Origin: a virus
DNA: 64,000 nt
Virus record (IMG/VR): IMGVR_UViG_3300025769_010106
Coordinates: 1 to 64,000 of that record
Reading direction: 5' to 3' (one strand)
In this document: piece by piece, positions 5,946-64,000 of the stretch
Position numbering within the stretch: the stretch's first letter is position 1
How the letters are laid out: the number at the start of each line of letters is the position of its first letter
Program-made: the position numbers and the translations under genes
Notes under the pieces: generated by a model
Told to the model about the DNA's origin: nothing
The model's database searches: none
What the model saw: the letters and a program-made list of their open reading frames with translations, nothing else

Positions 5946-5971
5946 AGTAATCATCAATAGGGAGAACTAAG

Positions 5972-34772: not shown

Positions 34773-35636
34773 ATGAAAGTAAGATACACTGAAGCGTTTT
34801 ATTCAGTTCAAGGAGAAGGTCGCTGGACAGGTGTGCCCAGTGTTTTCCTTCGCATGTATGGTTGTAACTTTACATGTCCTAAGTTTGGCATTGCAAGAGA
34901 CAGTAACGAAACAGCAGAGCCCCATATCAATAAAATTGTAGATGAGATTGACAAATACAATAGCATTGATGAGCTACCACTTGTAACAGTTGGATGCGAT
35001 AGTTATGCAGCCTGGCATCCCGCATTTAAACGATTCCAGCATGATGTTGATATTGATCAACTAGTAGACGATCTGCTTGCACTTACACCAACAGGTTCTT
35101 GGACATTGGACAATGGACAGGATATCCATTTGGTTATTACAGGCGGTGAACCCTTGCTTGGTTGGCAACGAGCATATATACAATTATTCAAACACGAACG
35201 CATGAAGGACCTAAAGAATGTTACATTCGAAACTAATACTACACAGAATTTGTCTGACGATCTCAGATCGTACCTCACAGATAATCAACATGTACACATT
35301 ACATTCTCTTGTTCCCCTAAACTATCGGTTAGTGGACATACTTGGGTTGATGCTATCAAGCCTAATGTTGCTGTTGAGTACGCTAGTCTTCGTAACAGCC
35401 ACTTGTATCTTAAGTTCGTTGTTTGCGATGATGTTGACGTGGCAGAAGTTGATCGAGCTGTTGCAGAATATAGATCTGCAGGACTTGAAGCGCCGGTTTA
35501 CCTCATGCCAGTCGGCGGTACGACGGACAGTTACTTCAAAAATGGCCGCCAAGTCGCAGAGCTCGCCTTACAAAAAGGCTACAGATATAGTCCACGGCTC
35601 CACGTTGACATCTTTGGCAACGCCTGGGGAACCTAA
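34773..35636 (+). CDS. queE: QueE, 7-carboxy-7-deazaguanine synthase (radical SAM)
   Basis: 287 residues, longer than E. coli QueE (223). Start EAFYSVQGEGRWTGVPSVF is diagnostic of QueE. The cluster Cys begin CNFTC (C31, C35), but the usual third Cys three residues later is absent and replaced by PKFG. The next Cys is C75 in VGCDSYAAW, after a 39-residue insert. TGGEPLLGW and FETNTTQN are the GGE and later motifs. Product CDG feeds deazaguanine DNA modification with DpdA. No QueC seen in the window. Confidence 0.9.
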   Translation: MKVRYTEAFYSVQGEGRWTGVPSVFLRMYGCNFTCPKFGIARDSNETAEPHINKIVDEIDKYNSIDELPLVTVGCDSYAAWHPAFKRFQHDVDIDQLVDDLLALTPTGSWTLDNGQDIHLVITGGEPLLGWQRAYIQLFKHERMKDLKNVTFETNTTQNLSDDLRSYLTDNQHVHITFSCSPKLSVSGHTWVDAIKPNVAVEYASLRNSHLYLKFVVCDDVDVAEVDRAVAEYRSAGLEAPVYLMPVGGTTDSYFKNGRQVAELALQKGYRYSPRLHVDIFGNAWGT

Positions 35637-46660: not shown

Positions 46661-47621
46661 TAAAGAATTAAATACTGCTTTAATAAAAGCTAACGACCTG
46701 GTTCTAAAATCAGGTCGTGTCATGATGGGTGAATATACACTGGAGTTTGAAAGCAGAATAGCAAAAGTATCTGGAGCAAACTACGCATGTGTAGTAGGAA
46801 GTGGAAGCGACGCTCTGTTGTATGCGTTAGTATCTAGTAACACTACAGGACTTGTTGGCATGCCTGCTCAAACTTTTATTGCTACTAAAAATTCTATTTT
46901 AAGAGCTGGATGCATACCTTATTTGGTAGATGTAAAGAATAATGCTCTATTAAATTGGGATTTAATTCCAAACAGTGTTGATTGTGCTGTATGGGTTGGG
47001 TTATTTGGTAACTCTGAACCTCTACCTGATAACTTATTTGTAATAGAAGATGGAGCTCAACATTTTGGAGCAAGGCTTCAATCCAATATTGCAACATATA
47101 GTTTTGATCCTACAAAAAGTCTACCTAACTTTGGCAATGGCGGTGCAGTTGTTAGCAACGACAAACGTGTTATAGACAATGTAAAACTTTTACGCAGACA
47201 TCAAATAGTAAATGGACACACGGGCGGCAACAGCATAATGAGTGAACGTGAGTGTGCTGAAATGTGTGTTAAGTTAGATTACTTTCCTCTTTGGCAAGAG
47301 CGTAGACAGGAGATTGCTAGAGATTATTACACACATTTAGGACATCTTGTAAATTGTGTCACTCAACTAGATGGACAGATAAGCAAGTTTATTATTGAAA
47401 CAACTATGCGGGCTGACCTACAAAAATACCTATCTCACAAACATATAGAGACCAAACGTGCCTATGAACATCCAATATACGAATTTGACCAGGCATCCAA
47501 AAACTGTAAAAGATTTCTACAATTACCCTGTGATCCTTATATGACTGATGAAGAACTGTTAGCTGTTATAATGGCTGTCAAAGAATTCTTTGAGGAAAGC
47601 CCACTCGAAAGTTTGCTGTAG
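46629..47621 (+). CDS. DegT/DnrJ/EryC1 family PLP aminotransferase
   Basis: 330 residues. GSGSDALLYAL binds PLP phosphate; MPAQTFIAT is the family's substrate loop; IEDGAQHFGAR holds the PLP Asp; and SFDPTKSLPNFGNGGAV carries the PLP Lys. It should aminate a keto-sugar nucleotide. Longer than the second copy at 26046, with a nearly complete C-terminal domain. Its end overlaps the minus-strand gene by 63 bp. Confidence 0.85.
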   Translation: MIHLHNLNRLNKELNTALIKANDLVLKSGRVMMGEYTLEFESRIAKVSGANYACVVGSGSDALLYALVSSNTTGLVGMPAQTFIATKNSILRAGCIPYLVDVKNNALLNWDLIPNSVDCAVWVGLFGNSEPLPDNLFVIEDGAQHFGARLQSNIATYSFDPTKSLPNFGNGGAVVSNDKRVIDNVKLLRRHQIVNGHTGGNSIMSERECAEMCVKLDYFPLWQERRQEIARDYYTHLGHLVNCVTQLDGQISKFIIETTMRADLQKYLSHKHIETKRAYEHPIYEFDQASKNCKRFLQLPCDPYMTDEELLAVIMAVKEFFEESPLESLL

Positions 47622-49868
47622 ATCATTTCCATCTTCAACATACTTGACAGCATCCTCAGCACCTCGTACACTCCACTTACCATTCTCTCCATTACCAACT
47701 GTAGTCCATTGCTCTAGTCTATAACGACTTTCAATGTCTGACTGTTGAGTAAGTTTTACACATTCGCGGAAGGCTGTACGCCAAGTTTCATATGGCGTGG
47801 TGTTAAAGTCTGCTGTACTTGCTATTACAGGAACAACTCCGTGTCTAGCACTTAGCGTAAAGTCTAGCCCCCATTCAGTAGCATCCAATACCATTTGTTT
47901 GTGGTACGCAATAATACCCATGTGTCCATACTCTAATCCATTAACAGGATTACGACTGTGGAATATCCAATGCTTGGGGCCTTGCAGCCAATCTGGTTGC
48001 CAGTTAAAATTAAAGTCAGGTTCTACAATACACTTAGCAAATACGTTAAAGAACCAGGGTGTCTCACTGATCTCTGCACAGGCCTTATATGCTTCTGCTC
48101 TACCCGTTACACCATCTATGCGCTTGGCTCTAGGGCACATACACTTGAGTAGAAACCAGTTTTTATCGGCGTTTTTTTCACCATTACTAAGATACACAAC
48201 ATCTAGTAGTTTTTCTTCTATATTATAGTCATTATGACGCAATATGTATGGGTAGTCATAGAATTGAGTAGAAAAATGCTGTTTACAGTCCCTAGGCACT
48301 AGTAGTACGCTACCGCTCTGTGTAAAGACGTGCAGATCGGGTTTTTTCCAAAAACTAGGAACATAGTCCAAAGATTTAGTGTCTGTATTCAATATCCAAC
48401 TATATGACTGTGTAACTTCATGTAGTGCATTAACTGTGGGCCAGGGTCTATAAGGGACTGTAACATCCTCTACGTAGTTTATAGTATCAAACCACCCTAA
48501 AACTTTTAGGGTACTGTGTTGACTCTTAAAACGCTCCACAGGGACTAAAAATGTATCACCCTCACGCTGATTACAGCTAGGGAATACATGTAGCATATCC
48601 TTCTGCCAGGGTTCCGGTTCCCAGCCAAAATCAAAGTTAGTGTAATCACAAGTGCTACTCGTAACCCATATATACTCGCTATCTGTACGCTCGCATATTC
48701 TTCCCAGAGTTTCTAACCAGGTACTGAAAAATCTAGTTGTTTTATGATCTAGATCAGGTGTAAACTTATATCCATTACCAAAGTCTACATATACTATTTC
48801 TCTGTTGTCATCAAATAATTCTACCGTTTGATCTTCAACAAAGTTTAATTCTGGAAAGTCTTTAACATCCTCAAACCAAGGTACCAGTCGTAGGAATTCA
48901 AGTCTTGGTACTCTAAACACATTAGCCCATTTTTGAAACTTGCTGCCAAACACATGTATCATGTTGCTTTGCCAAGTTTCTGGATACCATCCAAAGTCAA
49001 AGTCTGTGTAGTCATAGTCACTGCTGACTATCCACACAAAATCACTATTACTATTTTCACAAGCCTTTTTAATAATACTGGCCCAGTTGCCTACACCTCT
49101 AATTTTACGAGCATTTGAATCTTGTGCTAATACTGTGTCAAAACTTTTTTTGTTGTTTTTATTAAATTGGTCTACAACAAAAATATCACTAGTGATCTTG
49201 CTTTTAACCTGTTGCACACTTTCATACTTGATTTCACTAGCACCAGGTGTGTGATATTCAGGACCGCCTTGTCTAGCCCATTTACTACCAAACACATGAA
49301 TGTAACTGTCGGACTTTCTTGGATGCCAACTAAAATCAAAATTATCCAAATCAGCGTTTGGTGGCACATGCCAATTGTTTAAATTTTCTAGTGCTGTTGA
49401 TCGTTGCACACTTTCATATTTTATTTCACTAGCACCGGGTGTATGATATTCAGGACCTCCATCAGGTTGCCATTGTGTTCCAAAAACATGAATATAATTT
49501 TCATTTGGATCTGGATGCCAACTTAAATCAAATTTGTTGGTGTCAATGTTTGAAGGTATTTGCCAGTTGTCAACACATGGCAGTCTAGTTACACGTTGAT
49601 CTTTCATGTAGTGTAAAGGACCAGGATTGTGTTTGGGTGTTAGATAAACTTGTCCGTCTTGTTGCCATTGACTGGGCCATACATACACATGATCATGCTC
49701 CCAGTGCGGAGGCACCATGTCAAAGCGAAAATCTGTGTAGTCATTTTGACCCGATAAATACCAGCAGTATTCAGTACGACTTTGCTGTTGTGCTGCTTCA
49801 ATTGAATCTGCAGGCTGCTCGTGAGCAAATAGATTAGGCTTAGAACCTGTATAGAAAACATCAAACAT
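47559..49868 (-). CDS. Large repeat protein with glycosyltransferase-like modules
   Basis: 769 residues. At least six modules share the pattern DYTDFDFGWYPETW....HVFGS, then a late VP. Two adjacent modules share EYHTPGASEIKYESVQ exactly. The C-terminal part (VVYLSNGEKNADKNWF, CPRAKRIDGVTGRAEAY, SRNPVNGLEYGHMG) resembles the protein at 62022, a GT-A-like protein. The modules may be degenerate copies of that protein's DxD region. Role unknown. It overlaps a plus-strand gene at each end. Confidence 0.65.
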   Translation of the reverse strand: MFDVFYTGSKPNLFAHEQPADSIEAAQQQSRTEYCWYLSGQNDYTDFRFDMVPPHWEHDHVYVWPSQWQQDGQVYLTPKHNPGPLHYMKDQRVTRLPCVDNWQIPSNIDTNKFDLSWHPDPNENYIHVFGTQWQPDGGPEYHTPGASEIKYESVQRSTALENLNNWHVPPNADLDNFDFSWHPRKSDSYIHVFGSKWARQGGPEYHTPGASEIKYESVQQVKSKITSDIFVVDQFNKNNKKSFDTVLAQDSNARKIRGVGNWASIIKKACENSNSDFVWIVSSDYDYTDFDFGWYPETWQSNMIHVFGSKFQKWANVFRVPRLEFLRLVPWFEDVKDFPELNFVEDQTVELFDDNREIVYVDFGNGYKFTPDLDHKTTRFFSTWLETLGRICERTDSEYIWVTSSTCDYTNFDFGWEPEPWQKDMLHVFPSCNQREGDTFLVPVERFKSQHSTLKVLGWFDTINYVEDVTVPYRPWPTVNALHEVTQSYSWILNTDTKSLDYVPSFWKKPDLHVFTQSGSVLLVPRDCKQHFSTQFYDYPYILRHNDYNIEEKLLDVVYLSNGEKNADKNWFLLKCMCPRAKRIDGVTGRAEAYKACAEISETPWFFNVFAKCIVEPDFNFNWQPDWLQGPKHWIFHSRNPVNGLEYGHMGIIAYHKQMVLDATEWGLDFTLSARHGVVPVIASTADFNTTPYETWRTAFRECVKLTQQSDIESRYRLEQWTTVGNGENGKWSVRGAEDAVKYVEDGNDLQQTFEWAFLKEFFDSHYNS

Positions 49869-50925
49869 GTATAATTTAGAAACCTTTTATCCTACTATCA
49901 GCACATGGTTTAGACGCAAATATGACCATTTGGAACCTGCTGTGGTATACCCTTATCCATATGGCAGTGAACATCCAGAAGATACTGTGTTTGACAGTGC
50001 TTATGAATTTCCTAAGACTGTGTTACTATTATACGATCAAGAACCTTTTTGGTCAAGTATTCGTTGGCTAGATCATTTTGCTGAAATGTTTGCTGATTGG
50101 GGCTCAACAGTAATACTTATTACCACACAAGAATGGGGCACTAATTTAGACTATTATGTTAAAAACTTTAATTGGAAACATGTTTGTTACCAGCACCACC
50201 TGTTAGCATGCAGAGATTGGTATAGGGGTTATAGAAATCATCCACAACTGGTTTCACCTCAACAACGAAAACTTTATAATCATTTTGTATGTTATAATAG
50301 ACTTTTTGCTGAAAATAGACCACATAGAGTTAATCTTCTTAAAGACCTATATGATGATAACATACTATGCAAAGTTGATATGAGTTTTCCTGCAACTGAT
50401 CCTATTACAAATAGTTCTTATGCAGATATATCTGGTCGTAGTGATATACAGTTTATTCTACCATTAGACATAGACGATCCCAATCATAACAACAATAGTT
50501 TTACTTTAGATATACAATCTGCTAATGAAACTGCTATACATATTATTACTGAAACTATTTTCAATATTAAAGAAAATTATCTAAGCGAAAAAAGTTATAA
50601 ACCTATTGCCCTTAAACAACCATTTATAATATTTGGCGCTCCCTATAGCCTTAAGACTTTGCAGGATTTAGGATTTAAAACTTTTGCTAATTTTTGGGAT
50701 GAAAGTTATGATAACATTGAGGACCATGATCTAAGATACAGCAAGGCATATAAAATTGTTAAAGATATTGCTAGCATGTCATTAAATGATATTCAAAATA
50801 TTCTAATACAGTCTACGGATATTCTTGAATATAATTATAACCATTTTTATGCACAGGAAACTTTGGATAATATAGTTAATAATCTATTTTTAGATATTAC
50901 TAAGGCCGCTAGTTACGTAAATTAA
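49867..50925 (+). CDS. Glycosyltransferase-like phage protein, paralogue of 247-1452
   Basis: 352 residues. C-terminal SEKSYKPIALKQPFIIFGAP and DESYDNIED mirror the block in the protein at 247-1452. The N-terminal half has VYPYPYGSEHPED and is also aromatic-rich. Its ATG shares CATG with the minus-strand gene. It is the only plus-strand gene to the right of 47621. No strong ribosome site is seen upstream. Confidence 0.6.
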   Translation: MYNLETFYPTISTWFRRKYDHLEPAVVYPYPYGSEHPEDTVFDSAYEFPKTVLLLYDQEPFWSSIRWLDHFAEMFADWGSTVILITTQEWGTNLDYYVKNFNWKHVCYQHHLLACRDWYRGYRNHPQLVSPQQRKLYNHFVCYNRLFAENRPHRVNLLKDLYDDNILCKVDMSFPATDPITNSSYADISGRSDIQFILPLDIDDPNHNNNSFTLDIQSANETAIHIITETIFNIKENYLSEKSYKPIALKQPFIIFGAPYSLKTLQDLGFKTFANFWDESYDNIEDHDLRYSKAYKIVKDIASMSLNDIQNILIQSTDILEYNYNHFYAQETLDNIVNNLFLDITKAASYVN

Positions 50926-51794: not shown

Positions 51795-52088
51795 TTAAAA
51801 TATACCTATCATTAGTTTAGTATCTTCCGGTATAAGATCAGGTCCCCACTGTGGTTCCCATACAAGTTCACGTTCTACTTCTGTCACACCGTCAACATTT
51901 TTGCAGGCTTGGTATATGTCTTCGCATATTTGATCGGCAAATGGACACATAAAACTTGTTAAGCTATGCTTTACATGAACTTTAGTTTTTTCTATTTCTA
52001 TACTATATATCAAACCCAAATCGTAAACATTAACGCTTATCTCTGGATCATAGACAAGACGTAGTGCTTCTATTATCTTATCTTTCAT
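51795..52088 (-). CDS. sufT: SufT/MIP18 (DUF59) family Fe-S assembly protein
   Basis: 97 residues, full length for DUF59. VYDPEISVNVYDLGLIYSI is the family signature and the Cys in LTSFMCPFAD (C48) the conserved thiol. These proteins help mature iron-sulfur proteins. It is unusual in phages, and here sits next to five radical SAM enzymes. Coupled by overlap to the carbamoyltransferase and adjacent to the membrane protein gene. Confidence 0.85.
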   Translation of the reverse strand: MKDKIIEALRLVYDPEISVNVYDLGLIYSIEIEKTKVHVKHSLTSFMCPFADQICEDIYQACKNVDGVTEVERELVWEPQWGPDLIPEDTKLMIGIF

Positions 52089-53566
52089 GAGCAGACCTTC
52101 ACACCATACTGCTTTTCAAAACGATCTGCGTCAGCACGATCATTTACCATGGGCTCGCCACGGATGTTTAGGCTAGTGTTTAATAGCATTGGGCAGTCTG
52201 TCATTACATACCACTTTTCAAGTAGGTCCCTTGCGCCAGTACGATCATCCTTGCCTACTGTTTGTACACGACTGGTGTTGTCATAATGTACTATTGCAGG
52301 GAATAGATCTGGACGCTTACATTTATAGGTAAACTGCATATAGGGACTCGTATCCAGTCTGGGCATATCAAAATAATCGTGTGCATGCTCCTCTAATATC
52401 ATAGGAGCAAAAGGTCTGAACTTTTGTCTGCGTTTGATCTCGTTAACACGGTCTTTTATATCATCGCCGCGTGGGTCAGCAAGTAGACTGCGATTGCCCA
52501 GAGCACGTGGGCCAAACTCTGCACGACCACTTGCAACTCCTACAATACCTTCACGCTGTAGTTCGCCAATAATTTCTTCACTGGGATATTCACCGGGAAT
52601 GTTTGTTCCCAGATATGGCCCTTGCCAGTTTAAACGTTTGCCATATGCAAGAGCAGCAGCACCTAAACTACTACCACAGTCGCCAGGGTTTGGCATAACC
52701 CATAGTCTATTCCAGATATCACGAATCGCACTATTTGCAACACAGTTAAGAGCAACACCCCCCATGAACACGCAATCATCAATATCAGTATTTGTAATAC
52801 TTAATTGATGCATTGCCGTTCTGAGCATGCCTTCAGTGATCATTTGTGCAGCTCTGGCTATTTCTTCGATTGTATATTCACTGGCGAAACTGTCTTCTAC
52901 ACCAACGTGAAAATTTCGTTTAAAAATCTGTTTATGTTCATTATCTAAACTACCAGTAACAACCTCGCGATATGCATTTGGAGATCCATACGCTGCCATA
53001 CCCATGAGAATATATTCTTCTTCCATGGGTTTTAAACCACAACGCTTGGTCATTGCGCTGTAAAACAATCCTAAACTATGAGGGTAGCGACGTGTATAAA
53101 TCCTTTTATATTGTGCCCGACCTTGGTCATCGTATTCAGCACGATATGTTGACCAACAGTCCCATTCACCAATAGCATCTATTACTACCACAACAGCACG
53201 ATCAAAGGGTGATGTTTGAAACCCTGCCGCAGCATGACTTAAATGATGTCCTGAGTATTTGTCTACTTTAAGTCCGTATGGTTTTAATTGTTTAGTAGGA
53301 CTAGGGTCACCAAACACTTTACGCCACTCACCACTATATAGTTGACGTGTTTTTTTCAGCCATGGACGTTCATACCAAGCAACTAAATCAGGCGTACCAT
53401 AACCGAGTGCCTCAGCCATAATGCCTTCATTTAGTGTAGCATCATTTTTAACTTTACTATAGCGTTCGCTGTGACCTGCAAAAAGTATATTGCCTCTACT
53501 GTCCACGACACTGACACCAGCATCATGAAAGCCTGCACTCACGCCCATGTATGTTTTAAGTTTCAT
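52085..53566 (-). CDS. Carbamoyltransferase (NodU/CmcH/TobZ family)
   Basis: 493 residues. N-terminal GHHLSHAAAGF carries the metal-binding His pair of the kinase-like domain, then VVIDAIGEW, MGGVALNCVANS and FGPRALGNRSLLADPR. The C-terminal domain has RPFAPMILEE. These enzymes use carbamoyl phosphate and ATP to carbamoylate hydroxyls of sugars, antibiotics or bases. In this phage the target could be a glycan or a modified base. Overlaps sufT by ATGA. Confidence 0.92.
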   Translation of the reverse strand: MKLKTYMGVSAGFHDAGVSVVDSRGNILFAGHSERYSKVKNDATLNEGIMAEALGYGTPDLVAWYERPWLKKTRQLYSGEWRKVFGDPSPTKQLKPYGLKVDKYSGHHLSHAAAGFQTSPFDRAVVVVIDAIGEWDCWSTYRAEYDDQGRAQYKRIYTRRYPHSLGLFYSAMTKRCGLKPMEEEYILMGMAAYGSPNAYREVVTGSLDNEHKQIFKRNFHVGVEDSFASEYTIEEIARAAQMITEGMLRTAMHQLSITNTDIDDCVFMGGVALNCVANSAIRDIWNRLWVMPNPGDCGSSLGAAALAYGKRLNWQGPYLGTNIPGEYPSEEIIGELQREGIVGVASGRAEFGPRALGNRSLLADPRGDDIKDRVNEIKRRQKFRPFAPMILEEHAHDYFDMPRLDTSPYMQFTYKCKRPDLFPAIVHYDNTSRVQTVGKDDRTGARDLLEKWYVMTDCPMLLNTSLNIRGEPMVNDRADADRFEKQYGVKVCS

Positions 53567-53664
53567 TTGTAGATAAAAGGGTCCCTACGTCTCAACTCTT
53601 TTAGTCGCTTGCGATACTGTATCTCAAGTTTAATTCTGTTAATAAGGTTGCGAATCCAACGCAT
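53563..53664 (-). CDS. Small basic protein (33 residues)
   Basis: Reads MRWIRNLINRIKLEIQYRKR at its start and ends DPFIYK. It has an AGGAG ribosome site 8 bp upstream and its TGA overlaps the carbamoyltransferase ATG (ATGA). I recall this small protein from marine T4-like phages. The overlap suggests it couples translation of the carbamoyltransferase. Confidence 0.75.
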   Translation of the reverse strand: MRWIRNLINRIKLEIQYRKRLKELRRRDPFIYK

Positions 53665-53676
53665 TATATTCTCCTG

Positions 53677-53901
53677 TTATTGTCCGTACCAGTTATGTAT
53701 TCCAAGGAACGCTGCGCCAAAGTAAAACATCTCCATTAGCATCCTAGGCATGTCACGATCTTTATAAGCAAAGTATGCCCATGCGGCGCAAGACACACTA
53801 CTGAGTGCCCATCCCATCCATTGTATGCTGACTATGCCACTTGTTAAAATAAACAATGCTGTAACAGCACCCACAAACCCCAACCATCTTTGTATTCTCA
53901 T
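53677..53901 (-). CDS. Small membrane protein
   Basis: 74 residues, two or three helices (LGFVGAVTALFILTSGI; ALSSVSCAAWAYFAY; a third near the end). The end recalls short PnuC-like pieces, but weakly. Coupled by overlap to the gene at 53898. Function unknown. Confidence 0.65.
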   Translation of the reverse strand: MRIQRWLGFVGAVTALFILTSGIVSIQWMGWALSSVSCAAWAYFAYKDRDMPRMLMEMFYFGAAFLGIHNWYGQ

Positions 53902-54971
53902 GGTATTAATCCTAGTGCTTGCATCTGCACATTTTCGTAGTCTTCATCGTCTACAGTATAATCAAAGTAGTAGGGAACGCCATCTACTTCAATACTATAT
54001 ATGTTTAGAAGAGGACTCATCATATCCCAAATCTGCACAGGATCGGTTGTTCCAAAACTACTTAGCATATCTACTTGGCCCAGTGGCAAATATCCTAAAC
54101 TAAGTCTTGGATCTGTTATATCCTTGCCATTGTCAATCATCCATTGATGGAATTCATCTATATCTTCGTTATGCCATTTATGATCACCACCATATACTAC
54201 ATCTTTAGCCCACTCTATATCGAATTCACCACTATAATATTTTAAATCTGTAATTGCTTCGCATACTGTGTCAGTTAACATCGGAGCATCTTCGTCTCTC
54301 CATACTTCAAAGTATGTTTTTCCTATCTGACACCAGTGCATGTACACGCCACCAAACACACGATCATATCCGTTAGTCACAAAGCCTGCACGATATTCAT
54401 CTTCTAAGTGTAGACGCGGAGCGTTAAGAAATGTAGTAATCTGGCTGGGCCTTACCCACTCAGGTGCTAGGGCATCTTTAACTAAACTTAGTATGTATGT
54501 TTCCATCTCATGGCATAGGTTGTTTAATTGTCTAATACTATATTTTACTTTAGGAGATGCATTGTAATAATAATTACTTAAATTTCCAACTGTACCTTGT
54601 AATATTTCAAAATGATTATGTAAACGATTTAAAATATTGTGTTTGACATAATGCTGATGTCGAGAAAATTTATATTCTTTGGGATCAAACCAAACACTAT
54701 CAGGCGTAAAGTGTTCTTCTATTCTGTAATCCAAATCACTTTTATTAATACGTTTTATATGCTTATTAAGTTCACTAACCATAGCATGTAAGCCACGTGT
54801 CTGTTTTGGAAACCCCATAAAGCAAAAGTTCTTTTCTAGGTGTAGTCCGCGCTCAAGAATCTCTAATAGAGCAGTTTTCCATGCACGACCCAAGGGAATA
54901 TCATGGGGAGTTATTGTGTAGTCTAACTCAACACCAGTTTCATGAGGACTTTTAAGAACTATTCGTATCAA
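53898..54971 (-). CDS. Hypothetical protein linked to the radical SAM array
   Basis: 357 residues, rich in His, Tyr and Asp. Blocks such as LHLEDEYRAGFVTNGYDRVFGG and YMHWCQIGKTYFEVW look conserved. It overlaps the first radical SAM gene by 20 bp. Could be a substrate-handling partner; no family recognised. Confidence 0.65.
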   Translation of the reverse strand: MIRIVLKSPHETGVELDYTITPHDIPLGRAWKTALLEILERGLHLEKNFCFMGFPKQTRGLHAMVSELNKHIKRINKSDLDYRIEEHFTPDSVWFDPKEYKFSRHQHYVKHNILNRLHNHFEILQGTVGNLSNYYYNASPKVKYSIRQLNNLCHEMETYILSLVKDALAPEWVRPSQITTFLNAPRLHLEDEYRAGFVTNGYDRVFGGVYMHWCQIGKTYFEVWRDEDAPMLTDTVCEAITDLKYYSGEFDIEWAKDVVYGGDHKWHNEDIDEFHQWMIDNGKDITDPRLSLGYLPLGQVDMLSSFGTTDPVQIWDMMSPLLNIYSIEVDGVPYYFDYTVDDEDYENVQMQALGLIP

Positions 54972-56229
54972 TACTTTCCCACCATTTTGCTAACTCAGTG
55001 TCGCGTAATGTATCAACGAACGGCATCCCGGCTCTTGCCGTATCTAGGCGTTCCATACGTCGCTTGGCCCGGGCTCTAGCCTTAGCATAGTCTTCGGGAT
55101 ACTCTTCCTCAAACGTAGGCCGTTTAATTAAGTTCATTAATACATCACGCATTGGACCTGATGTGTCAGGTAACACATCTGTTATTATAGCATGTAATAT
55201 GTCTCTGGGCAAGAATAAAGGACTCATGGCAATATCAGGTGTGAACGCAAATGTAACTTTAGCAAGTATGTCTACACCCAAATCTGCTGCTAGTTTTTGT
55301 ATATTGCGTATCTCAAATAAGCCTGGCACGGTTAGTGTAAAGTCTATACGCATTTGCCTACGGTATTTGCTAACAGCAATACCCTGCTTGAAGTTTTCCA
55401 GCCACTGATCATATTTGAGTCCAGTGCGTATGTATTCTCCTACAGCACCAGTGCCATCCAAACTAGCACAAATCTGCCAGTCTCTTATCTTCGGCAATAT
55501 ATCAGTATAAAGGTTACAGCCACCAAACTCAATACGACTAAGGTTGGTATTGTATCTAGCGTATATACGTGGACCATCTCCTAGTTCAATAATACGTTGC
55601 ATATAACGCCAGTGCTGTTCATACATAAGAGGCTCGCCGCCTACCCAGTATATTTCTTCAACACGATGTTCTTCCACTGCACAAGCAAACTCCTGTTCAA
55701 CAGTATCTTTTTGAAACTTTTCTATTGCTTGCTTTACAGGCGTTTCCATCCAGGGTTCTATTTTGCCATCCATACGTGCTTCTGCTTCCCAACTGCTACT
55801 AAGCATTGGGCCGCACATACGACATTTAAAGTTACAGAGGTTAGTAAAACGATAGTCCCAACTCACAGGCTGCATACTAGTATAGCCCGTGTCATCTGTT
55901 GTTCGTGCTATGTCATCATACTTGTGTTTGAATAAATGCCAGAAGTAATCACGATAAACATCTGTGTTTAGTAATTTCTTGTCGCAAACCTCACACTCAG
56001 GTGGCAGTTCACCTGCTAGCATTTGACGGCGCACTCTGCGTATATGTTCACCGTTCCACCACTCATCCAGTGTTTGTGGCAAATATTCATTAGTGCCGGC
56101 GGCGGTGTCTATATACTGACGAAAGTTCTGAGCAGGTTCTCTGCTGGCACAACATAGCCTACGCTCTGTCTGTGGTGACAGATAGGTGTGCGTCCAGGGT
56201 GCCATGCACAAGGTATCAGGTTTATTCAT
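54952..56229 (-). CDS. Radical SAM protein, SPASM-like region first (A)
   Basis: 425 residues. Core motif CNFKCRMCG: C132, C136, C139 bind the SAM cluster. Before it, CMAPW (C8), LCCAS (C26, C27) and CEVCD (C79, C82) look like a SPASM/twitch-type auxiliary cluster region, here N-terminal. VGGEPLMYE matches the GGE motif. Likely modifies a peptide, sugar or small molecule. Overlaps its neighbours at both ends. Confidence 0.85.
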   Translation of the reverse strand: MNKPDTLCMAPWTHTYLSPQTERRLCCASREPAQNFRQYIDTAAGTNEYLPQTLDEWWNGEHIRRVRRQMLAGELPPECEVCDKKLLNTDVYRDYFWHLFKHKYDDIARTTDDTGYTSMQPVSWDYRFTNLCNFKCRMCGPMLSSSWEAEARMDGKIEPWMETPVKQAIEKFQKDTVEQEFACAVEEHRVEEIYWVGGEPLMYEQHWRYMQRIIELGDGPRIYARYNTNLSRIEFGGCNLYTDILPKIRDWQICASLDGTGAVGEYIRTGLKYDQWLENFKQGIAVSKYRRQMRIDFTLTVPGLFEIRNIQKLAADLGVDILAKVTFAFTPDIAMSPLFLPRDILHAIITDVLPDTSGPMRDVLMNLIKRPTFEEEYPEDYAKARARAKRRMERLDTARAGMPFVDTLRDTELAKWWESIDTNSS

Positions 56230-56791
56230 CTGCTAATGGAAATTCAAATTTCCCATCTGCTGCTTTCCTAAACAAGTCCGATACCCACTGATGCCATTCT
56301 GGTGCATAATGATGTCCCAATTTACTGATTGGCCATCGGTCGGGATGGTCGATATAGGGTATCAGATCATAAAGAGTCATATCAATCAAGCGACATTGAT
56401 TCTGCTCACAAATTGATTTCAAATCTATTAGATTCCTAGAAAAGTTTTTCCTACACCAGTCATCGTCGTGTGTTTCCATAAAATAGATTCGATTACTGCA
56501 TGTAGGAAGACTCTGATAAAACTTTCCATCTTTTTGATATTCAAATCTACTCCAATCTGGCCAAAGACAGTAGACTATGTTTGGTTTATGTTCCGGTACG
56601 AGATCTTGTGCCAGACGAACAACCTGATCACCGCTGGCTGATCCAACCCCAAAATTCTTAGCCCCTAACAGATAAGGCCAGGTTTCGTTGTTTTCTACTC
56701 CAACACCCCAGGTATGGCTGCAACCAAATGCTATAGAATCCGAATTGGTGATTTTATTCCTAAATTTCAGTGGATTTTCACTCATAGCCAA
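56222..56791 (-). CDS. SGNH hydrolase-like protein in the radical SAM array
   Basis: 189 residues. Block I is SIAFGCSHTWGVGV, with the usual GDS as GCS. The later VGSASGDQ fits block II. The C-terminal SKLGHHYAPEWHQW gives a possible catalytic His. It is likely an esterase or acyltransferase acting on the same product as the radical SAM enzymes. Confidence 0.65.
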   Translation of the reverse strand: MAMSENPLKFRNKITNSDSIAFGCSHTWGVGVENNETWPYLLGAKNFGVGSASGDQVVRLAQDLVPEHKPNIVYCLWPDWSRFEYQKDGKFYQSLPTCSNRIYFMETHDDDWCRKNFSRNLIDLKSICEQNQCRLIDMTLYDLIPYIDHPDRWPISKLGHHYAPEWHQWVSDLFRKAADGKFEFPLADE

Positions 56792-58011
56792 GACTTTCTG
56801 CCAGCTCCCATAGCTATAGCAATAGGCGTGTGTGTTTCTAGAAAACTTTCATTTCTGAATTCGTCTGCCTTTTTCATCAACCTTACAAATTTTTCACCAT
56901 CACCAGTTGGACCATTTTTTATAAATTGTATTATTTTTTTTATTTCGTCTCTGTGTTGAGGAGGGAAATGATCCTGAGTTAGCCTATTAATAACTAAGTC
57001 TTTTGCTGCTTTAGTCATCTCACCTATATTCATATGCCTAGGGTCATGTAGCATATTAAAGTGATCGTAATCAAAATTCTGTTTTGAAACCCAGTCACAA
57101 AGATCCTTTAAATAGTAAACGTTTTGAGCGTTTATTGTCATACAAATTTGTAGTTGAATATTATCATTCTGCTCTCTTAAAATTTTAAACTTTTTGATAT
57201 TTTCCTGTACCTGCTCCCAATCAGCACCATATCGTTCAAGTTCAAATCGTTTACCTACGTTATCAATACTAAATGCTATTTCCACATACTTAAATTGTTT
57301 CCAAAGATCTATATGCTGTTCAGGATAGTGTGTGCCATTTGTATTATAATGTATTTCTATATTTTTTGCCAGATCCAGATCAACAGCCCGTTGTAGGAGA
57401 TTGAAGTGTTCCTGAATCATAAATGGTTCTCCGCCAGTAAATTCAAAGTGACGAATATTTGGTAGTATAGTTTCCATATGCTCCCAAAAAATGTCACTTT
57501 CCCTAGGCCATCTTCCTTGCTTTAACCACGTATGTGCAATATTAAATTTAGTATCTGCCTTCCATTCTTTTTTATGATATTCAATTTCTTCTGCTGCCCA
57601 TTTGCTACTACTCCAACTGCCGCATATGCGACATTTAAGGTTACATATGTTACCCAACTTTAAATCTAAAAACCAAATATCTTCAGGTTGAATGTTACTG
57701 TAATCTATTTTTTCACGTTCGTGTTTAAAACGTATGTCTGTATTCATACGCTTACTGGTTCTTCCAGCATCCTCTTCGTCCCAACAACGTTGACATGTTT
57801 TAGGACGCTCACCTTTTAGAAATTGTTCACGTAAATCTTTCATATAGTCACTCTGAAAGATATCTTTTAGTGTATGTTCTTTAAGATCATATTTCTCGCC
57901 ATTTGGCTGGAGAATTTCATCTATAGCCATACAGCATGGACGAGTTGTGCCGAGTGGTGTTGTTTCTAAACTTACCCAGGGCAACATACATAAGGTTTTA
58001 GGGTTTTGCAC
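56782..58011 (-). CDS. Radical SAM protein, SPASM-like region first (B)
   Basis: 409 residues. Core CNLKCRICG: C123, C127, C130. N-terminal CMLPW (C8), RPCCMA (C26, C27) and CQRCW (C73, C76) as in protein A. TGGEPFMIQE is the GGE motif. MTINAQNVYYL resembles similar late motifs in the array. Starts by overlap with protein C. Confidence 0.85.
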   Translation of the reverse strand: MQNPKTLCMLPWVSLETTPLGTTRPCCMAIDEILQPNGEKYDLKEHTLKDIFQSDYMKDLREQFLKGERPKTCQRCWDEEDAGRTSKRMNTDIRFKHEREKIDYSNIQPEDIWFLDLKLGNICNLKCRICGSWSSSKWAAEEIEYHKKEWKADTKFNIAHTWLKQGRWPRESDIFWEHMETILPNIRHFEFTGGEPFMIQEHFNLLQRAVDLDLAKNIEIHYNTNGTHYPEQHIDLWKQFKYVEIAFSIDNVGKRFELERYGADWEQVQENIKKFKILREQNDNIQLQICMTINAQNVYYLKDLCDWVSKQNFDYDHFNMLHDPRHMNIGEMTKAAKDLVINRLTQDHFPPQHRDEIKKIIQFIKNGPTGDGEKFVRLMKKADEFRNESFLETHTPIAIAMGAGRKSWL

Positions 58012-59326
58012 GAGCCGGCTCCAGTTCAGGAAAAGTTTTCCAGAAGTCTTCTTTTCTGAAGTTATCTAATTTTGCTACTTCAAATTCAAATCTTTCCCAG
58101 TTTTTTTCATAATTATCCTTAGCATTTAAGAAACTTATTACACCTTCTAAACCAGTTGATGCCCTGTTAAGTGAATCTTGAGGTCTTAACCATTCAATAT
58201 GCTTCCTATATGCAGGTTCAATAACTTCCTTCTTAAACCAAGTTGGGAATATATCTATTCTGTACCAATCAGGACTTTGACATATATTAATATTTAAGTC
58301 TTTAGGTTGTATGAACCCACGCTCTACCCAATCACGATGAAAATCAAGCACATGTAATACATTTTGACTTGTAATAGTTGCACTAATATAGAAGTCTATA
58401 TGTGGAACTTCTTCAATCATTCTCTGTCTGTTTTCTTCTGTTTTTTTCCACACGGCACCCTTGCGTATTAGTTCCCCTTGTTTGCCCATTCCGTCTAGAC
58501 TTGCACCAATACTAACATTATTAAAGTGTTTCCAATACTCTATGACATGTTTGTCTTTATATCTAAGTTCACTAAAGTTAGTGTTATATAGTAAACGTAC
58601 ATTTGTCTTTCCATGCTCGATAAGTTTTTCAAGTAGATAATAATGCTCTTTCATTATAAGCGGTTCGCCGCCTGCAAAATATACTTGTTCTAAGTATGGT
58701 ATATGCTTTTCCATTTGAGCGATCATACCATCTTCATCACCAGTCGTATATTCAACTCTTGCCATATCTCTGCCAAGTACATCTGGTTTGACACCATAGA
58801 GTCCTATATAATCCTCATACCAATTACTACTAAAAATAGGGCCACAACTTCTACATTTAAAATTACAGAGGTTACTAAACCTAACATCCCAGTATCTTAT
58901 TTTAAACTCATCATGGTTACCATCTTGACTTGTTTTATCAAGGTCCTTGATTAAATGACCATAGTTACGATTAGCATCATTACGCATACTGAAGAAACCA
59001 TTTTCTTCTTGTTCATAACATTTACCACATTCAACACAAGTATTTTCTTCCATCATGTTCTTGCGTAATCTTTTATAACCTTCTTGATTCCAAACTTCCT
59101 CCATTGTATTCTTTCTTAGATCACCAACTGGATGCCAGTAATCAGCAAAACAACAGGGATATGCTCTGCCGTCCGGAAACGCATGCATATGTACCCATGG
59201 AAGCATACAGAATCGTTTGCTCTCAATGAGTTTAAATTTTTCGTCTTCAGTTAATTTTTCTAATTCAATGAAGTGTGGTTTACGTTCATCATATTTGAAA
59301 TTTTTGTAAAAGTCCTTGTTAGACAT
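57998..59326 (-). CDS. Radical SAM protein, SPASM-like region first (C)
   Basis: 442 residues. N-terminal extension, then CMLPWVHMHAF (C40), YPCCFADYW (C58, C59), CVECGKC (C97, C100, C103). Core CNFKCRSCG: C154, C158, C161. AGGEPLIMKE is the GGE motif. The NT region reads like a classic C-terminal SPASM domain moved to the front. Confidence 0.85.
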   Translation of the reverse strand: MSNKDFYKNFKYDERKPHFIELEKLTEDEKFKLIESKRFCMLPWVHMHAFPDGRAYPCCFADYWHPVGDLRKNTMEEVWNQEGYKRLRKNMMEENTCVECGKCYEQEENGFFSMRNDANRNYGHLIKDLDKTSQDGNHDEFKIRYWDVRFSNLCNFKCRSCGPIFSSNWYEDYIGLYGVKPDVLGRDMARVEYTTGDEDGMIAQMEKHIPYLEQVYFAGGEPLIMKEHYYLLEKLIEHGKTNVRLLYNTNFSELRYKDKHVIEYWKHFNNVSIGASLDGMGKQGELIRKGAVWKKTEENRQRMIEEVPHIDFYISATITSQNVLHVLDFHRDWVERGFIQPKDLNINICQSPDWYRIDIFPTWFKKEVIEPAYRKHIEWLRPQDSLNRASTGLEGVISFLNAKDNYEKNWERFEFEVAKLDNFRKEDFWKTFPELEPARAKP

Positions 59327-60665
59327 TCTGATACCAATCCTTCAATTCTGGAAATACTGAGATTAAGTCCTTTTTTCTACGCACGTCATACTGACTATAA
59401 AACTTTTTAAAGTCATTGTGTAGTTTAGGCATTTCAAATGCTTCACTGTGCGGTGTTTCTACTGTACGCAAATATGTTACCAGTCGTTCCAACTGTCCTT
59501 GTTCAAACTGGTGCATGGGTGTACTACGGTTAAGAAACTTGGGTGCCCAGCGTTTGTATAGGTCTTCCAATTTATCAGCGTGACGATTGCGTATATCCAA
59601 TGGAAGTACTAGTGCCGACTGGAAACTTGGAAAGCGTAATATATTTAAACTGAATACTGCAAAATTATTCCCTAACAGTCTTCTTGTTTGTAATATTTGC
59701 TCGATTAGGTCTGGTAGTGTCTCCAAGCACAGCGCATTAACTGTCATCATGCAATGTGTGCCAACGCCTGCCTCACTCAATCTGCAAATATTTTCCCACC
59801 AATAGTCCCAATCTAATCCGTCACGTATATATTCTGCAGGCGCCCCTACTGCTTCACAACTGGTGTAAACATCCAAGCTAGGCAAGTAATTACGAGCATC
59901 AATTAGTCTGTCAATTAACTCACCCTTGCCTCCTAAGTTACTATTAATAGCAAGTTTGGTTTGGCTTTTGTCTGCGTTTGCTTTGAACCAATCTATTAAA
60001 CGCCACAAGTCTGCGCTCATTGTTGGCTCACCGCCGGTAACTCGTAGTTCACGTAATGTTTTATGTAAGTCTGTATCCCACCATTTAAAAAATGCTTCTA
60101 CGTAAGGATTTCTATCCTCCACCCCATAAAGCTGGCTACTACTATGAACGTGAGTAAAGTGGTTACGGCCATCACTAACAAGGCCCTTATAACTGCCATT
60201 TGTTTTTAGGTCCTTTACCCATGTGGTGCTAAAAGCAGGATTACAGTAACTACAAGCAAAATTGCAGGTACGATCAAATGCAATTTCGAGTGTACGGAGA
60301 TTGACGTCAATATCATGCGGGCTATTTCGTGCATCTTGTAATTCCTCATCAGTATATATCTTGCTCTTATATACACGGTCACTTATAAAATTAGGACCCA
60401 TATCTTCAATTTTCCAACAATACTCACAGCCGGTTGGACGCTCTCCACACTGCATTTGTCGCCGCTGTTCTTTTTTCTCTGGTGTATTGTGTAACAATTT
60501 TGGATTAGTTTCAACAGCAACAGGATCTACTTTATGTGGTAATGGATGATGGCAACTAGTAGTCATGCCAGATCCTAACCAGATAGTAGCATTATACCAT
60601 TTAGCACCACAAAAGGTCGGACTAAGTTTGTCTAGAACTTCCTGTTTATAAATTAAGTCATCCAT
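59319..60665 (-). CDS. Radical SAM protein, variant auxiliary region (D)
   Basis: 448 residues. Core CNFACSYCN: C134, C138, C141. The front Cys set differs from A-C: FCGAKW (C19), TSCHHP (C38), CEYCW (C80, C83). RVTGGEPTMS is the GGE motif. With E it forms a second subtype in the array. Overlaps neighbours. Confidence 0.85.
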   Translation of the reverse strand: MDDLIYKQEVLDKLSPTFCGAKWYNATIWLGSGMTTSCHHPLPHKVDPVAVETNPKLLHNTPEKKEQRRQMQCGERPTGCEYCWKIEDMGPNFISDRVYKSKIYTDEELQDARNSPHDIDVNLRTLEIAFDRTCNFACSYCNPAFSTTWVKDLKTNGSYKGLVSDGRNHFTHVHSSSQLYGVEDRNPYVEAFFKWWDTDLHKTLRELRVTGGEPTMSADLWRLIDWFKANADKSQTKLAINSNLGGKGELIDRLIDARNYLPSLDVYTSCEAVGAPAEYIRDGLDWDYWWENICRLSEAGVGTHCMMTVNALCLETLPDLIEQILQTRRLLGNNFAVFSLNILRFPSFQSALVLPLDIRNRHADKLEDLYKRWAPKFLNRSTPMHQFEQGQLERLVTYLRTVETPHSEAFEMPKLHNDFKKFYSQYDVRRKKDLISVFPELKDWYQNV

Positions 60666-62025
60666 TTGCTATATACCTACATTCATCCCAAAATTCTCTC
60701 ATCTCAGGAAATGTTTGTTCAAAGTTTGTGCCGCGGCGACGATCATGCTCACTAAAAAATCTATAAAAGTCTGCTCTGCGCGTGTCCACATCACTTACAT
60801 TATCCACACCCTGCATCCAGACTAGATCACGTCTCATCTTTAGTACTTCGTAGTCCTTAAATCCGTGCATCTCATCTAAATTTGATTCCATAAATTTTAT
60901 ACAGTCTTTAAGATATAACTGATATGCCGGAGTTAATATCTGCATACTTTGCCATTCAGGAGTATACAGTAATGGAGTATCAAACCAAATACGCTGATAA
61001 CTTTTGGTATAAGTCTTGCGAAGGTATAAAATATATTCTAGCAGTCTTTTCAAACTAATAATATTAAGATTACTCATAGTAATTATTAGAGTTAAACTAC
61101 TGCGATAGGGAATGTCGCGCACAAATCTTTCTATGCGTGACTTACAAAGTTCAAAGTCAAGTCCATGTCTAATATATTCAGCCTGTGCACCCCAGGTATC
61201 TAAGCTAACAAACTGCATGAAGTGTTCAATCTTTTCACCCTGTGTAAGCTGATGTATATAACCCATATAGTTTTCAAAAATATAATCATCTGTACTAAAG
61301 TTACTAGTAGTGTTTAAATGCAAATCTTTTTTAGGATTATCAAGCACATAATCAAACACACGATAGGTATTTGGATCCATGGTAGGTTCGCCACCAGTCA
61401 TACGAAAATGTTTTAGGTCTTTGTATAGATCAGGCCACCAACGCCAGAATGCTTCACGGTATGGATTGGCATCTTTATTGGGGATTGGTTTGCGTTCACC
61501 AATAAAATGTGCAGGATCATTATGTGGTGTGCTAGTAGGATAAGAACCATACTGCTTGGCTTCGCGTTCCCAGGTACTACTAAACTGTGGGCTACAATAA
61601 CTGCACTTCAAATTGCAAGCGTGATTAAAGTTAACTTCTACATAACTTGGATTTACATCTGCTTGTGGATTTGCTACAATATCAGCAAATGATTCCATAG
61701 CCCAGGGTTCACCACTGCGATAATGACGATCACTGATTGCGTTAGGTTGACTTTCAATATTCCAACAGTAGTTGCATTCAGTACACTTGACACCCTGTAT
61801 CATTTCAGCACGGCGCTCTTTCTTATGTGCAGTATTATGCAGGGCACTTGGATTGTCTGCAAGCGGCTCAACAGGAATGCGATGCAGTGGGGGATGGTAG
61901 CAACTATTGGTATGTCCGGTTGTTAAGTGTAGACTAACCTGTTTCCATTTAGCCAGGCAGAAACTATCGCTCACAGTAGCGAGTTTATACTTTGCTATAT
62001 TAGCATCAAAAAGGTAATCACTCAC
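60658..62025 (-). CDS. Radical SAM protein, variant auxiliary region (E)
   Basis: 455 residues. Core CNLKCSYCS: C137, C141, C144. Front Cys: SFCLAKW (C23), NSCYHPP (C42), CTECNYCW (C81, C84, C87). MTGGEPTMD is the GGE motif. Closest to protein D. Overlaps protein D by 8 bp and the GT-like gene by 4 bp. Confidence 0.85.
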   Translation of the reverse strand: MSDYLFDANIAKYKLATVSDSFCLAKWKQVSLHLTTGHTNSCYHPPLHRIPVEPLADNPSALHNTAHKKERRAEMIQGVKCTECNYCWNIESQPNAISDRHYRSGEPWAMESFADIVANPQADVNPSYVEVNFNHACNLKCSYCSPQFSSTWEREAKQYGSYPTSTPHNDPAHFIGERKPIPNKDANPYREAFWRWWPDLYKDLKHFRMTGGEPTMDPNTYRVFDYVLDNPKKDLHLNTTSNFSTDDYIFENYMGYIHQLTQGEKIEHFMQFVSLDTWGAQAEYIRHGLDFELCKSRIERFVRDIPYRSSLTLIITMSNLNIISLKRLLEYILYLRKTYTKSYQRIWFDTPLLYTPEWQSMQILTPAYQLYLKDCIKFMESNLDEMHGFKDYEVLKMRRDLVWMQGVDNVSDVDTRRADFYRFFSEHDRRRGTNFEQTFPEMREFWDECRYIANG

Positions 62026-62948
62026 CAGCCTTCGGCCTTTCTAATAACTTCTATTTCTGTAGTCATAGGATCGTATGCATGATAGGTTTGACTATAATAG
62101 TGCTTGAAGAATCTACTTTGTTCTGGTGTGTAATCAACGATTGGTAATTCAAGTTTACGTCTTAGTATAGCACCATATTCAGTAAAGTTTTCATCCCCAA
62201 TATCCCATTCTTCTTCCCAAATTCTATCCAAACTAGCAAAGTCTCTAACTTCATGCCAGTCCCAATCAGTACACATTAGTTTATATGTACCGTACCTAGC
62301 ACCATACATTGCCTCAAACCCATATTGTGCGTCAGCACCAACACTGTGCCAAACACAGAGCTTGTCAAAGTTTTTAGCATGTACCTGTTGCTTAAATTCT
62401 TCTACAGTAGGCTTGCGTCCTTTGTTAAGGCACATCTTAACGCCTTCTCTAAAACCAGCACGGAACGCATGTCTAGCACTACCATTAGGATATGTAGTAC
62501 TATAAACATTGTTCATTGCAAGATACTTGTCGTCAAAGCAAAACTCTACTACAGTTTCATCTGTACCGTCAGTTGCTTCATGTGTCTGCATATTATTAAC
62601 AAACTCACGTGTCCAGCAACTAAGTCCACCGTTGCCATACATAAGCCCGTTTATATTATTGCGAGCTTTCCAACGAAACACGCAATCAGCATATTCCTCT
62701 TTTATATCTAATACAAGATTGAAAAACGATTCATCAGGTATGTTGTCACCGTCTATGAGAACAAAGCGTTCTGTTTCACTTACTGCTGCCGCTGCTTTGT
62801 GTGCTGCATCACTTCCTTGCACACCATCCACACGTTTGGCCCAGGGAACCATATTTTGGATTTGAATCCAGAACTCTTCCTTTTTAGGTTCGTCAAATGA
62901 AAGATAGATGCAGTCTAGATCTGCAATATCAATTATTTGTCCAGCCAC
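62022..62948 (-). CDS. Glycosyltransferase-like (GT-A) protein
   Basis: 308 residues. LDCIYLSFDEPKKEEFW, then VPWAKRVDGVQGSDAAHKAA, then LIDGDNIPDESFF with a DxD-type motif, then NNINGLMYGNGG. This matches a GT-A style protein family found in marine phages, and its first half is related to the C-terminal part of the 769-residue protein at 47559. Leads into the radical SAM array by a 4 bp overlap. Confidence 0.7.
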   Translation of the reverse strand: MAGQIIDIADLDCIYLSFDEPKKEEFWIQIQNMVPWAKRVDGVQGSDAAHKAAAAVSETERFVLIDGDNIPDESFFNLVLDIKEEYADCVFRWKARNNINGLMYGNGGLSCWTREFVNNMQTHEATDGTDETVVEFCFDDKYLAMNNVYSTTYPNGSARHAFRAGFREGVKMCLNKGRKPTVEEFKQQVHAKNFDKLCVWHSVGADAQYGFEAMYGARYGTYKLMCTDWDWHEVRDFASLDRIWEEEWDIGDENFTEYGAILRRKLELPIVDYTPEQSRFFKHYYSQTYHAYDPMTTEIEVIRKAEGW

Positions 62949-63163: not shown

Positions 63164-63470
63164 TTTCTATCTCCTTTATACAAAAATATGGATTATTTTT
63201 TAATGTAATTGCTGGTGTGGCTTGCCAGTAAACATGGACGGCTGTATCTATATCAACGATTTTGCCATCCTGAACACGCTGTCTTATAGGATATACCAGT
63301 GTATCCTCTGATATAACGATATAGTCTTCAGTCCAGTGTTCAGCTTTATTTACATGACAATAGTTAATAATTTCACCAGTTTCTTTATTGTAGCGCAAAC
63401 GAACCTCAAGTTCAACCTTAGTGCGATTGCCTAATAATTCAACTATTAATTTTTTTAACTCTGTACTCAT
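63153..63470 (-). CDS. Small hypothetical protein
   Basis: 105 residues. Beta-rich (ELEVRLRYNKETGEIINYC, TAVHVYWQATPAITL). No family recognised. Overlaps both neighbours, so it belongs to the same operon as the radical SAM genes. Confidence 0.65.
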   Translation of the reverse strand: MSTELKKLIVELLGNRTKVELEVRLRYNKETGEIINYCHVNKAEHWTEDYIVISEDTLVYPIRQRVQDGKIVDIDTAVHVYWQATPAITLKNNPYFCIKEIENAE

Positions 63471-63996
63471 ATCTATCTATCAATTCTGGAGTGCAAAATG
63501 TTTTATCGTAATAGTGGAATGGATACTGTTGTGCATATCCGCCTACAATTAAATCAAAATCGTCTGTTAGTGTCCATGATACAGCATCCTGCCAGCGCAT
63601 ACTATTCTTCCAGTTATTAATTGCCGGCTTCATATGTGTAAACGTCGGATAACTTAATTTATTTGAACAAGGTATTCCAAGATTTAACTGTGCTAGCGCA
63701 TAAAGAACATCAGTGTCAGGTTTGTCATAGATACTATACTCAAGAACACTGTCACGCAACTCAGCCCAATGGTGTATCGCCTGCTCAATAGCTCTACAGA
63801 AGCCCACACTAGTCCTACTGTACCTAAAATATGAAAACCCATTATAAGCATCATCAAGCTGATTGGCATCAAAAAACTTCCTGTAGTAACGTGTTTGGGC
63901 AATATTACCCTGGTAATCTCTTACACTATTAGTATAGCACACATCATTTAATCTACAACCGTTCCACCAGTGATCCAAACTGCGAGGAATAATCAT
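63439..63996 (-). CDS. Hypothetical, possibly glycan-related protein (may be cut by window end)
   Basis: 185 residues to an ATG at 63996. The frame stays open to the window edge, so the true start may lie outside. The end GGYAQQYPFHYYDKTFCTPELI recalls sugar-transfer proteins from memory, with low certainty. Overlaps the next gene by 32 bp. Confidence 0.55.
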   Translation of the reverse strand: MIIPRSLDHWWNGCRLNDVCYTNSVRDYQGNIAQTRYYRKFFDANQLDDAYNGFSYFRYSRTSVGFCRAIEQAIHHWAELRDSVLEYSIYDKPDTDVLYALAQLNLGIPCSNKLSYPTFTHMKPAINNWKNSMRWQDAVSWTLTDDFDLIVGGYAQQYPFHYYDKTFCTPELIDRYEYRVKKINS

Positions 63997-64000
63997 GTCA

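Follow-up and report, generated by a model that had tools for sequence, protein, structure and literature searches.

Five radical S-adenosylmethionine (SAM) proteins encoded almost one after another in a viral genome raise the question of what a virus might do with them; to our knowledge, enzymes of this kind have received little attention in phages. The five genes (A to E) lie at 54952-62025 on the minus strand of the 108,479-base virus record IMGVR_UViG_3300025769_010106 from IMG/VR, the first 64 kb of which is the window analyzed here. An earlier note on this DNA had placed all five correctly and had recognized in each a multi-Cys region before the CxxxCxxC core. The genes proved to be part of a cassette of eight core genes that follows tail-fiber genes in other viruses as well. 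We tentatively propose, with somewhat less than even confidence, that the cassette is a dedicated biosynthesis unit of large T4-like phages that would place a radical SAM-edited, O-carbamoylated glycan on the virion.

An eight-gene cassette conserved across viruses

Relatives of the cassette were gathered in scans with C, A, D, and F, with up to 80 loci listed per scan and at least 80 available for some of them. Loci were fetched by similarity to these proteins via degenerate patterns, and the sample leans to close relatives; near-identical contigs were removed by comparison of one short stretch. Among the loci listed, 107 distinct viral loci held both H and G, and in all 107 the genes were colinear on one strand. 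The exact order H-E-D-C-B-A-F-G was present in 89 of these loci, and because of this identity the eight-gene order is far beyond chance. In the 43 loci found with D that had 9 kb of downstream sequence, C was present in 42, B and A in 43, F in 40, and G in 37, and all 68 of the D-query loci with 6 kb of upstream sequence contained both E and H.

The cassette came after tail-fiber genes in every locus with enough upstream sequence (55 of 55); it runs in the direction of these genes and is inherited together with them. Upstream of H, relatives of the fiber module were detected at high frequency (65813 in 55, 66776 in 54, and 68961 in 49 of the 55 loci), as were the glycosyltransferase-like genes I and J (both in 55 of 55). 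The three S/T-rich fiber-module proteins of the record rank second to fourth in S+T content among its 94 open reading frames (ORFs). This strict linkage, together with the S/T-rich fiber proteins, points to the virion as the likely acceptor of whatever the cassette makes.

In the window, the cassette is entirely on the minus strand, with H (62022..62948; 308 amino acids [aa]) opening it and the carbamoyltransferase G (52085..53566) closing the core. The earlier note had described one run of genes overlapping by 4 to 20 bp. This is accurate from H to a small hydrophobic ORF of 74 aa (53677..53901): the overlaps are 4 bp for H/E, 8 bp for E/D and D/C, 14 bp for C/B, 10 bp for B and an SGNH-like gene, 8 bp for the latter and A, 20 bp for A/F, and 4 bp for F and the small ORF. 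However, a 110-bp gap, the largest inside this cassette, precedes G, which in turn overlaps the next gene, coding for a SufT-like protein, by 4 bp. A promoter and terminator scan gave no more sites than were found in shuffled sequences.

Five radical SAM proteins with an N-terminal cysteine region

All five proteins scored above the curated cutoff (170 bits) of NF033640 (N_Twi_rSAM in NCBIfam), with 294 to 391 bits in alignments that span the whole model, N-terminal Cys part included (E values, 2e-87 for A, 2e-107 for B, 6e-117 for C, 1e-90 for D, and 5e-91 for E), and profile searches also gave matches to the Pfam radical SAM core. A C..C(C)..CxxC set in the N-terminal region was invariant in each of the five orthologue sets and across an alignment of the A-, B-, and C-type proteins, which have seven invariant Cys residues in total. 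The Pfam SPASM model (PF13186; gathering score, 21.5) matched this stretch in C (45.9 bits; 7e-12; residues 40 to 103) and in B (30.3 bits; 5e-7; residues 8 to 77), and the match in A was slightly below the gathering score (20.0 bits; 9e-4). PF13186 had no match in D or E, but NF033640 still covers their N-terminal Cys stretch. Thus, the Cys region before the core that the earlier note had pointed out is real, and its four-Cys motif is predicted to form an auxiliary [4Fe-4S] cluster site.

The division of the proteins into two subtypes was also borne out. A (54952..56229; CMAPW, CC), B (56782..58011; CMLPW, CC), and C (57998..59326; CMLPW, CC) are of one type, and D (59319..60665; CGAKW, SCHH) and E (60658..62025; CLAKW, SCYH) are of the other, being a sister pair with 100% support in a tree of 96 radical SAM proteins. 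Each of the five formed a clade of its own (support, 100% for A and B, 97% for C, 98% for D, and 99% for E), whereas long branches leave the placing of the Vibrio phage proteins and the extra radical SAM copies unsure. Separate orthologue clades argue for five old, specialized steps and rule out recent tandem duplication as the origin of the array; judged by this phylogeny, A to E are five anciently distinct, specialized enzymes.

The family was rare in the cellular samples covered. Ten cassette-bearing contigs had 6 to 13 members above the NF033640 cutoff per contig, Vibrio phage K566 had two, and 14 control genomes had none. At an E value of ≤1e-40, a sample of 150 genomes from one bacterial phylum had 2 with members, and an alphaproteobacterial class sample of 289 had none, the latter in a search without a positive control. 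A scan of cellular genome contigs returned one full-length relative and two poor ones. The full-length relative is in a bacterial metagenome-assembled genome (FK5.bin95), which encodes three C-like radical SAM proteins in a row and has seven family members above the cutoff. In a bacterial genome, a radical SAM gene of the same family adjoins a short-chain dehydrogenase (SDR) gene that by eye resembles sugar-nucleotide reductases.

Two more radical SAM genes lie beyond the window in the same record (98737-99882 and 102261-103352, plus strand). Each is preceded by an SDR-like gene (pairs at 98277-99882 and 101668-103352), and the SPASM match is N terminal in one protein and C terminal in the other.

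Core partners of the radical SAM proteins

G (493 aa) can be assigned to the O-carbamoyltransferases. It matched PF02543 (110 bits; 2.5e-31), PF16861 (171 bits; 3e-50), and phrog_1601, and its relatives in the PDB include NovN, GdmN, and TobZ. The solved relatives of G carbamoylate sugars and antibiotics.

F (53898..54971; 357 aa) had no Pfam, NCBIfam, or PHROG match and no PDB sequence match. Its structure was predicted with confidence (AlphaFold2 pLDDT, 90.5; pTM, 0.88), and a Foldseek search of the PDB with this model gave nothing at an E value of ≤0.001; F may represent a new enzyme fold. Its many invariant polar residues include H118, E122, C153-H154-E155, R174, R204, K218, E222, and D226-E227. 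Among viral models, Foldseek found eight matches, all of them uncharacterized phage proteins, one being a 300-aa protein of the cultured phage Atu_ph07. The parts of the Atu_ph07 genome that were read contain two credible 300-aa reading frames, one of which is gp166, inside the radical SAM cluster of that phage. Because of this position and the fold match, F-like proteins probably accompany radical SAM proteins in Atu_ph07 too; a profile comparison of F with gp166 and its Phosso counterpart was not significant, which leaves the predicted fold as the sole link.

The other partners are putative glycosyltransferases. H carries a DGDN motif that hints at a GT-A-type enzyme and had neither a Pfam match nor a meaningful PDB profile match. 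I (63439..64000, running on to 64287 past the window; minus strand), between the tail fibers and the cassette, had weak profile similarity to glycogenin (E value, 0.017).

A conserved ORF of ∼120 aa before H was considered as a peptide precursor and rejected, as its alignment does not look like one, and no conserved Cys-rich short ORF that might encode the precursor of a ribosomally synthesized and posttranslationally modified peptide was seen in the cassette, where the search of very short ORFs was not exhaustive. The only other occurrence of the 74-aa small ORF (tblastn) was in a near-identical locus, L021, in which an ORF that by eye resembles a GIY-YIG homing endonuclease (5175-5999, plus strand) lies between the small ORF and G; it is absent from the window.

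Variable cargo and support genes

Further genes are inserted between the core genes of the 107 loci, nearly all on the same strand. The most common cargo family is SGNH-like (116 members), represented in the window between B and A (56222..56791, minus strand); it has a GxSxTxG motif, and its best Pfam match, in a relative, had an E value of 0.036. A family of putative glycosyltransferases (99 members) conserves the motif TEK...KP...PF...GF-TF...DESYD. Its window relative (49867..50925, plus strand), outside the cassette, had no Pfam or PDB match. Extra radical SAM proteins of the NF033640 type accounted for 41 cargo members, and APS-kinase-like P-loop proteins, B12-binding radical SAM proteins, SDRs, a hexapeptide transferase, and an aminotransferase were also found.

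Working radical SAM enzymes need SAM, removal of 5'-deoxyadenosine, electrons, and Fe-S clusters. In a few loci, the cargo also comprises a SAM synthetase, a PNP/UDP-superfamily nucleosidase, or a flavin reductase, and by analogy with the known chemistry of MtnN the nucleosidase may clear the 5'-deoxyadenosine by-product. In one virus (locus L079), the nucleosidase (9420-9986) and the SAM synthetase (12463-13563) are both in the cassette, on the plus strand.

The SufT/PaaD-like Fe-S assembly protein (51795..52088, minus strand) matched PF01883 (9.5e-18) and, with 104.3 bits, fell under the equivalog cutoff of TIGR02945 (143.4). It is next to the cassette in the window, as the earlier note had reported, but it is an optional neighbor rather than a core gene: there were 19 hits among the loci, some of which overlap. 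A virus-wide dependence on SufT was thus ruled out, as SufT is present in only a minority of the relatives.

Proposed function and alternative explanations

Gene content, order, orthology, and motifs are read from the sequence; from them we infer the order of the enzymes, the substrate, the product, the acceptor, and the benefit. Putative glycosyltransferases (J, I, H, and cargo) would build a short glycan, on which the five radical SAM proteins would make successive H-atom abstractions, leading, for example, to dehydrogenation, epimerization, or deoxygenation, reactions for which twitch/SPASM enzymes are known; the N-terminal cluster would bind the substrate or relay electrons. F would carry out a further step, the SGNH cargo would trim or add acyl groups, and G would carbamoylate a hydroxyl as a cap. 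The completed glycan would most likely be placed on the S/T-rich tail-fiber proteins encoded just upstream, where it could alter receptor binding or hide the fiber. The relationship of G to NovN, TobZ, and GdmN and the SDR, hexapeptide transferase, aminotransferase, and SGNH cargo all point in the direction of sugars. The phage-encoded pathway envisaged in the earlier note is supported, as a multistep one with several radical SAM proteins, sugar-type partners, and, in some relatives, Fe-S, SAM, and redox support genes of its own, but the Fe-S maturation protein that the note counted as part of it is not core.

Several points weigh against a decorated fiber. Family support for H, I, and the cargo glycosyltransferases is weak at best; MetK, the nucleosidase, and the reductase each occur in just two or three loci; and adjacency to fibers could mean late coexpression only. 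The substrate, product, and acceptor are themselves deduced from sequence, and twitch/SPASM enzymes also act on peptides. The fuller claim, that this is a virus-dominated radical SAM pathway inherited with tail fibers, that it makes a new radical-edited adhesin decoration, and that F is a new fold, is doubtful. If the cassette does decorate fibers, it would add a new layer to phage host recognition and be a source of new enzyme chemistry.

The radical SAM proteins might instead modify a fiber or virion polypeptide directly, by a C-C or thioether cross-link, epimerization, or oxidation; the sugar genes would add to that site as well. Among solved structures, those closest in fold are for the most part SPASM enzymes that mature peptides (SuiB and SkfB, for example), and SkfB was the sole PDB profile match of B. 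However, the AlphaFold2 model of A (pLDDT, 88) matched SuiB, BlsE, and SkfB over only part of the protein (TM score, about 0.3). Other phages lend this explanation some plausibility. The radical SAM clusters of Atu_ph07 and Phosso, which come after a giant tail protein, contain the gene of a tail-region protein whose C terminus is a CHxSCHASCHxSRSRR repeat. A DNA pattern scan for such tails found 73 viral stretches, 40 of which encode proteins with such a C terminus, and 34 radical SAM-like genes lie within 120 bases of these 40; phage proteins with CHxSCHxSCHxSRxRR endings are at L264:21119-22009 (minus strand), at L265:41627-42547 (plus strand), and in loci L301 to L373. This pairing makes radical SAM action on a phage protein plausible and suggests, from the gene neighborhoods, that the repeat-tailed protein and the adjoining radical SAM protein are an unreported enzyme/substrate pair; no paper was retrieved when the literature was searched for the exact string CHSSCHGSRGRR. 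The pair is outside the system of the window, in which a search of the fiber proteins found no Cys/His tail, and direct peptide modification has no need of a carbamoyltransferase or sugar-type cargo. Overall, it seems an unlikely explanation for the cassette.

Remodeling of a host surface glycan (O antigen or capsule), for instance to block superinfection, would also account for sugar-type cargo, and the bacterial contig with three C-like radical SAM proteins resembles an exopolysaccharide locus, partly by eye, in that genes for an asparagine synthase and for large hydrophobic proteins are present there too. However, the cargo had no noticeable flippase, polymerase, or lipid-carrier transferase, and this explanation, which we consider quite unlikely, does not predict strict coinheritance with fibers.

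Synthesis of a hypermodified DNA base is improbable. G could carbamoylate a hydroxymethyl group, as it shares its Pfam families with a 5-hydroxymethylcytosine (5hmC) carbamoyltransferase whose activity has been shown (PMC8670742), and a dCMP deaminase gene is nearby. However, the thymidylate synthase/dCMP hydroxymethylase family (PF00303) was absent from 7 of 10 cassette records, including five contigs of >330 kb, which disfavors the 5hmC route, with the proviso that the records may be fragments. In addition, the carbamoyltransferases of unmodified contigs in that study adjoin glycosyltransferases, as G does here. A search for a TET/JBP oxygenase, which could supply the hydroxymethyl base by another route, gave no hit, but the control genomes gave none either.

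A free small molecule, such as a nucleotide analogue or an antimicrobial directed against the host or rival phages, is highly improbable: the core of B is weakly similar to viperins, but its NF038283 score, the best of the five, was 38 bits against a cutoff of 180, for which reason a viperin-type antiviral or defense role was rejected, no exporter or resistance gene was noticed, and the fiber linkage would be left unexplained.

The virus and neighboring genes

A polymerase and baseplate proteins of the window virus match phage families, and its large baseplate wedge is nearest (∼34% identity) to those of Atu_ph07, Phosso, and jumbo phages of the Klebsiella K64-1/Salmonella Munch group. As contigs with relatives of the cassette reach 374 kb, the 108,479-base record is probably a fragment of a larger genome. 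Past the cassette, the window encodes a 769-aa protein (47559-49868, minus strand) without a Pfam match, relatives of which lie just past the cassette in many loci. Two ORFs at 34082-34555 and 34773-35636 (plus strand) are by eye QueD-like and QueE-like, a hint of 7-deazaguanine metabolism or DNA modification.

Comparison with known systems

The earlier note had named no described phage system with this layout. The proteins are not of an unknown kind, as all five, including their N-terminal Cys region, fall in NF033640, in which the N-terminal twitch is already named; this entry names a subfamily but states no reaction and says nothing of five ordered paralogues or their partners. For the layout, no description of the gene order was found in a literature search that covered open-license papers. 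A radical SAM-rich phage genome is on record: a marine T4-like genome, TARA_ERS488813_N000010, has 12 radical SAM genes, an Fe-S carrier, and PaaD (PMC5332604), and the SufT-like protein of the window also matches PaaD models. In the section of that 2017 paper that covers them, these genes are counted as Fe-S metabolism, and neither a gene order or cassette nor linkage to the tail or an N-terminal twitch is described.

G shares both Pfam domains and conserved motifs with the O-carbamoyltransferases NodU, NovN, TobZ, and GdmN, but it is shorter, scores 134 bits against the 1,000-bit NodU equivalog cutoff, and sits in a phage radical SAM cassette. The phages with 5hmC carbamoyltransferases (PMC8670742) likewise combine a carbamoyltransferase with a nearby dCMP deaminase, whereas most cassette contigs tested lack the thymidylate synthase-type hydroxymethylase family and the neighbors here are putative glycosyltransferases and radical SAM proteins.

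The closest cultured parallels are Atu_ph07 (Agrobacterium) and Phosso (Sinorhizobium), which have the same baseplate wedge, a giant tail protein, and then a radical SAM cluster. Their radical SAM proteins barely match NF033640, none above the cutoff, and no carbamoyltransferase is annotated in the stretch; gp171 of Atu_ph07 is of the classical type, with extra Cys residues after the core, whereas those of the window proteins come before it. With a related cluster at the same place, Atu_ph07, whose host is the laboratory strain Agrobacterium C58, offers an experimental entry. What is new here is the system, an ordered cassette linked to the tail, and not the kind of protein.

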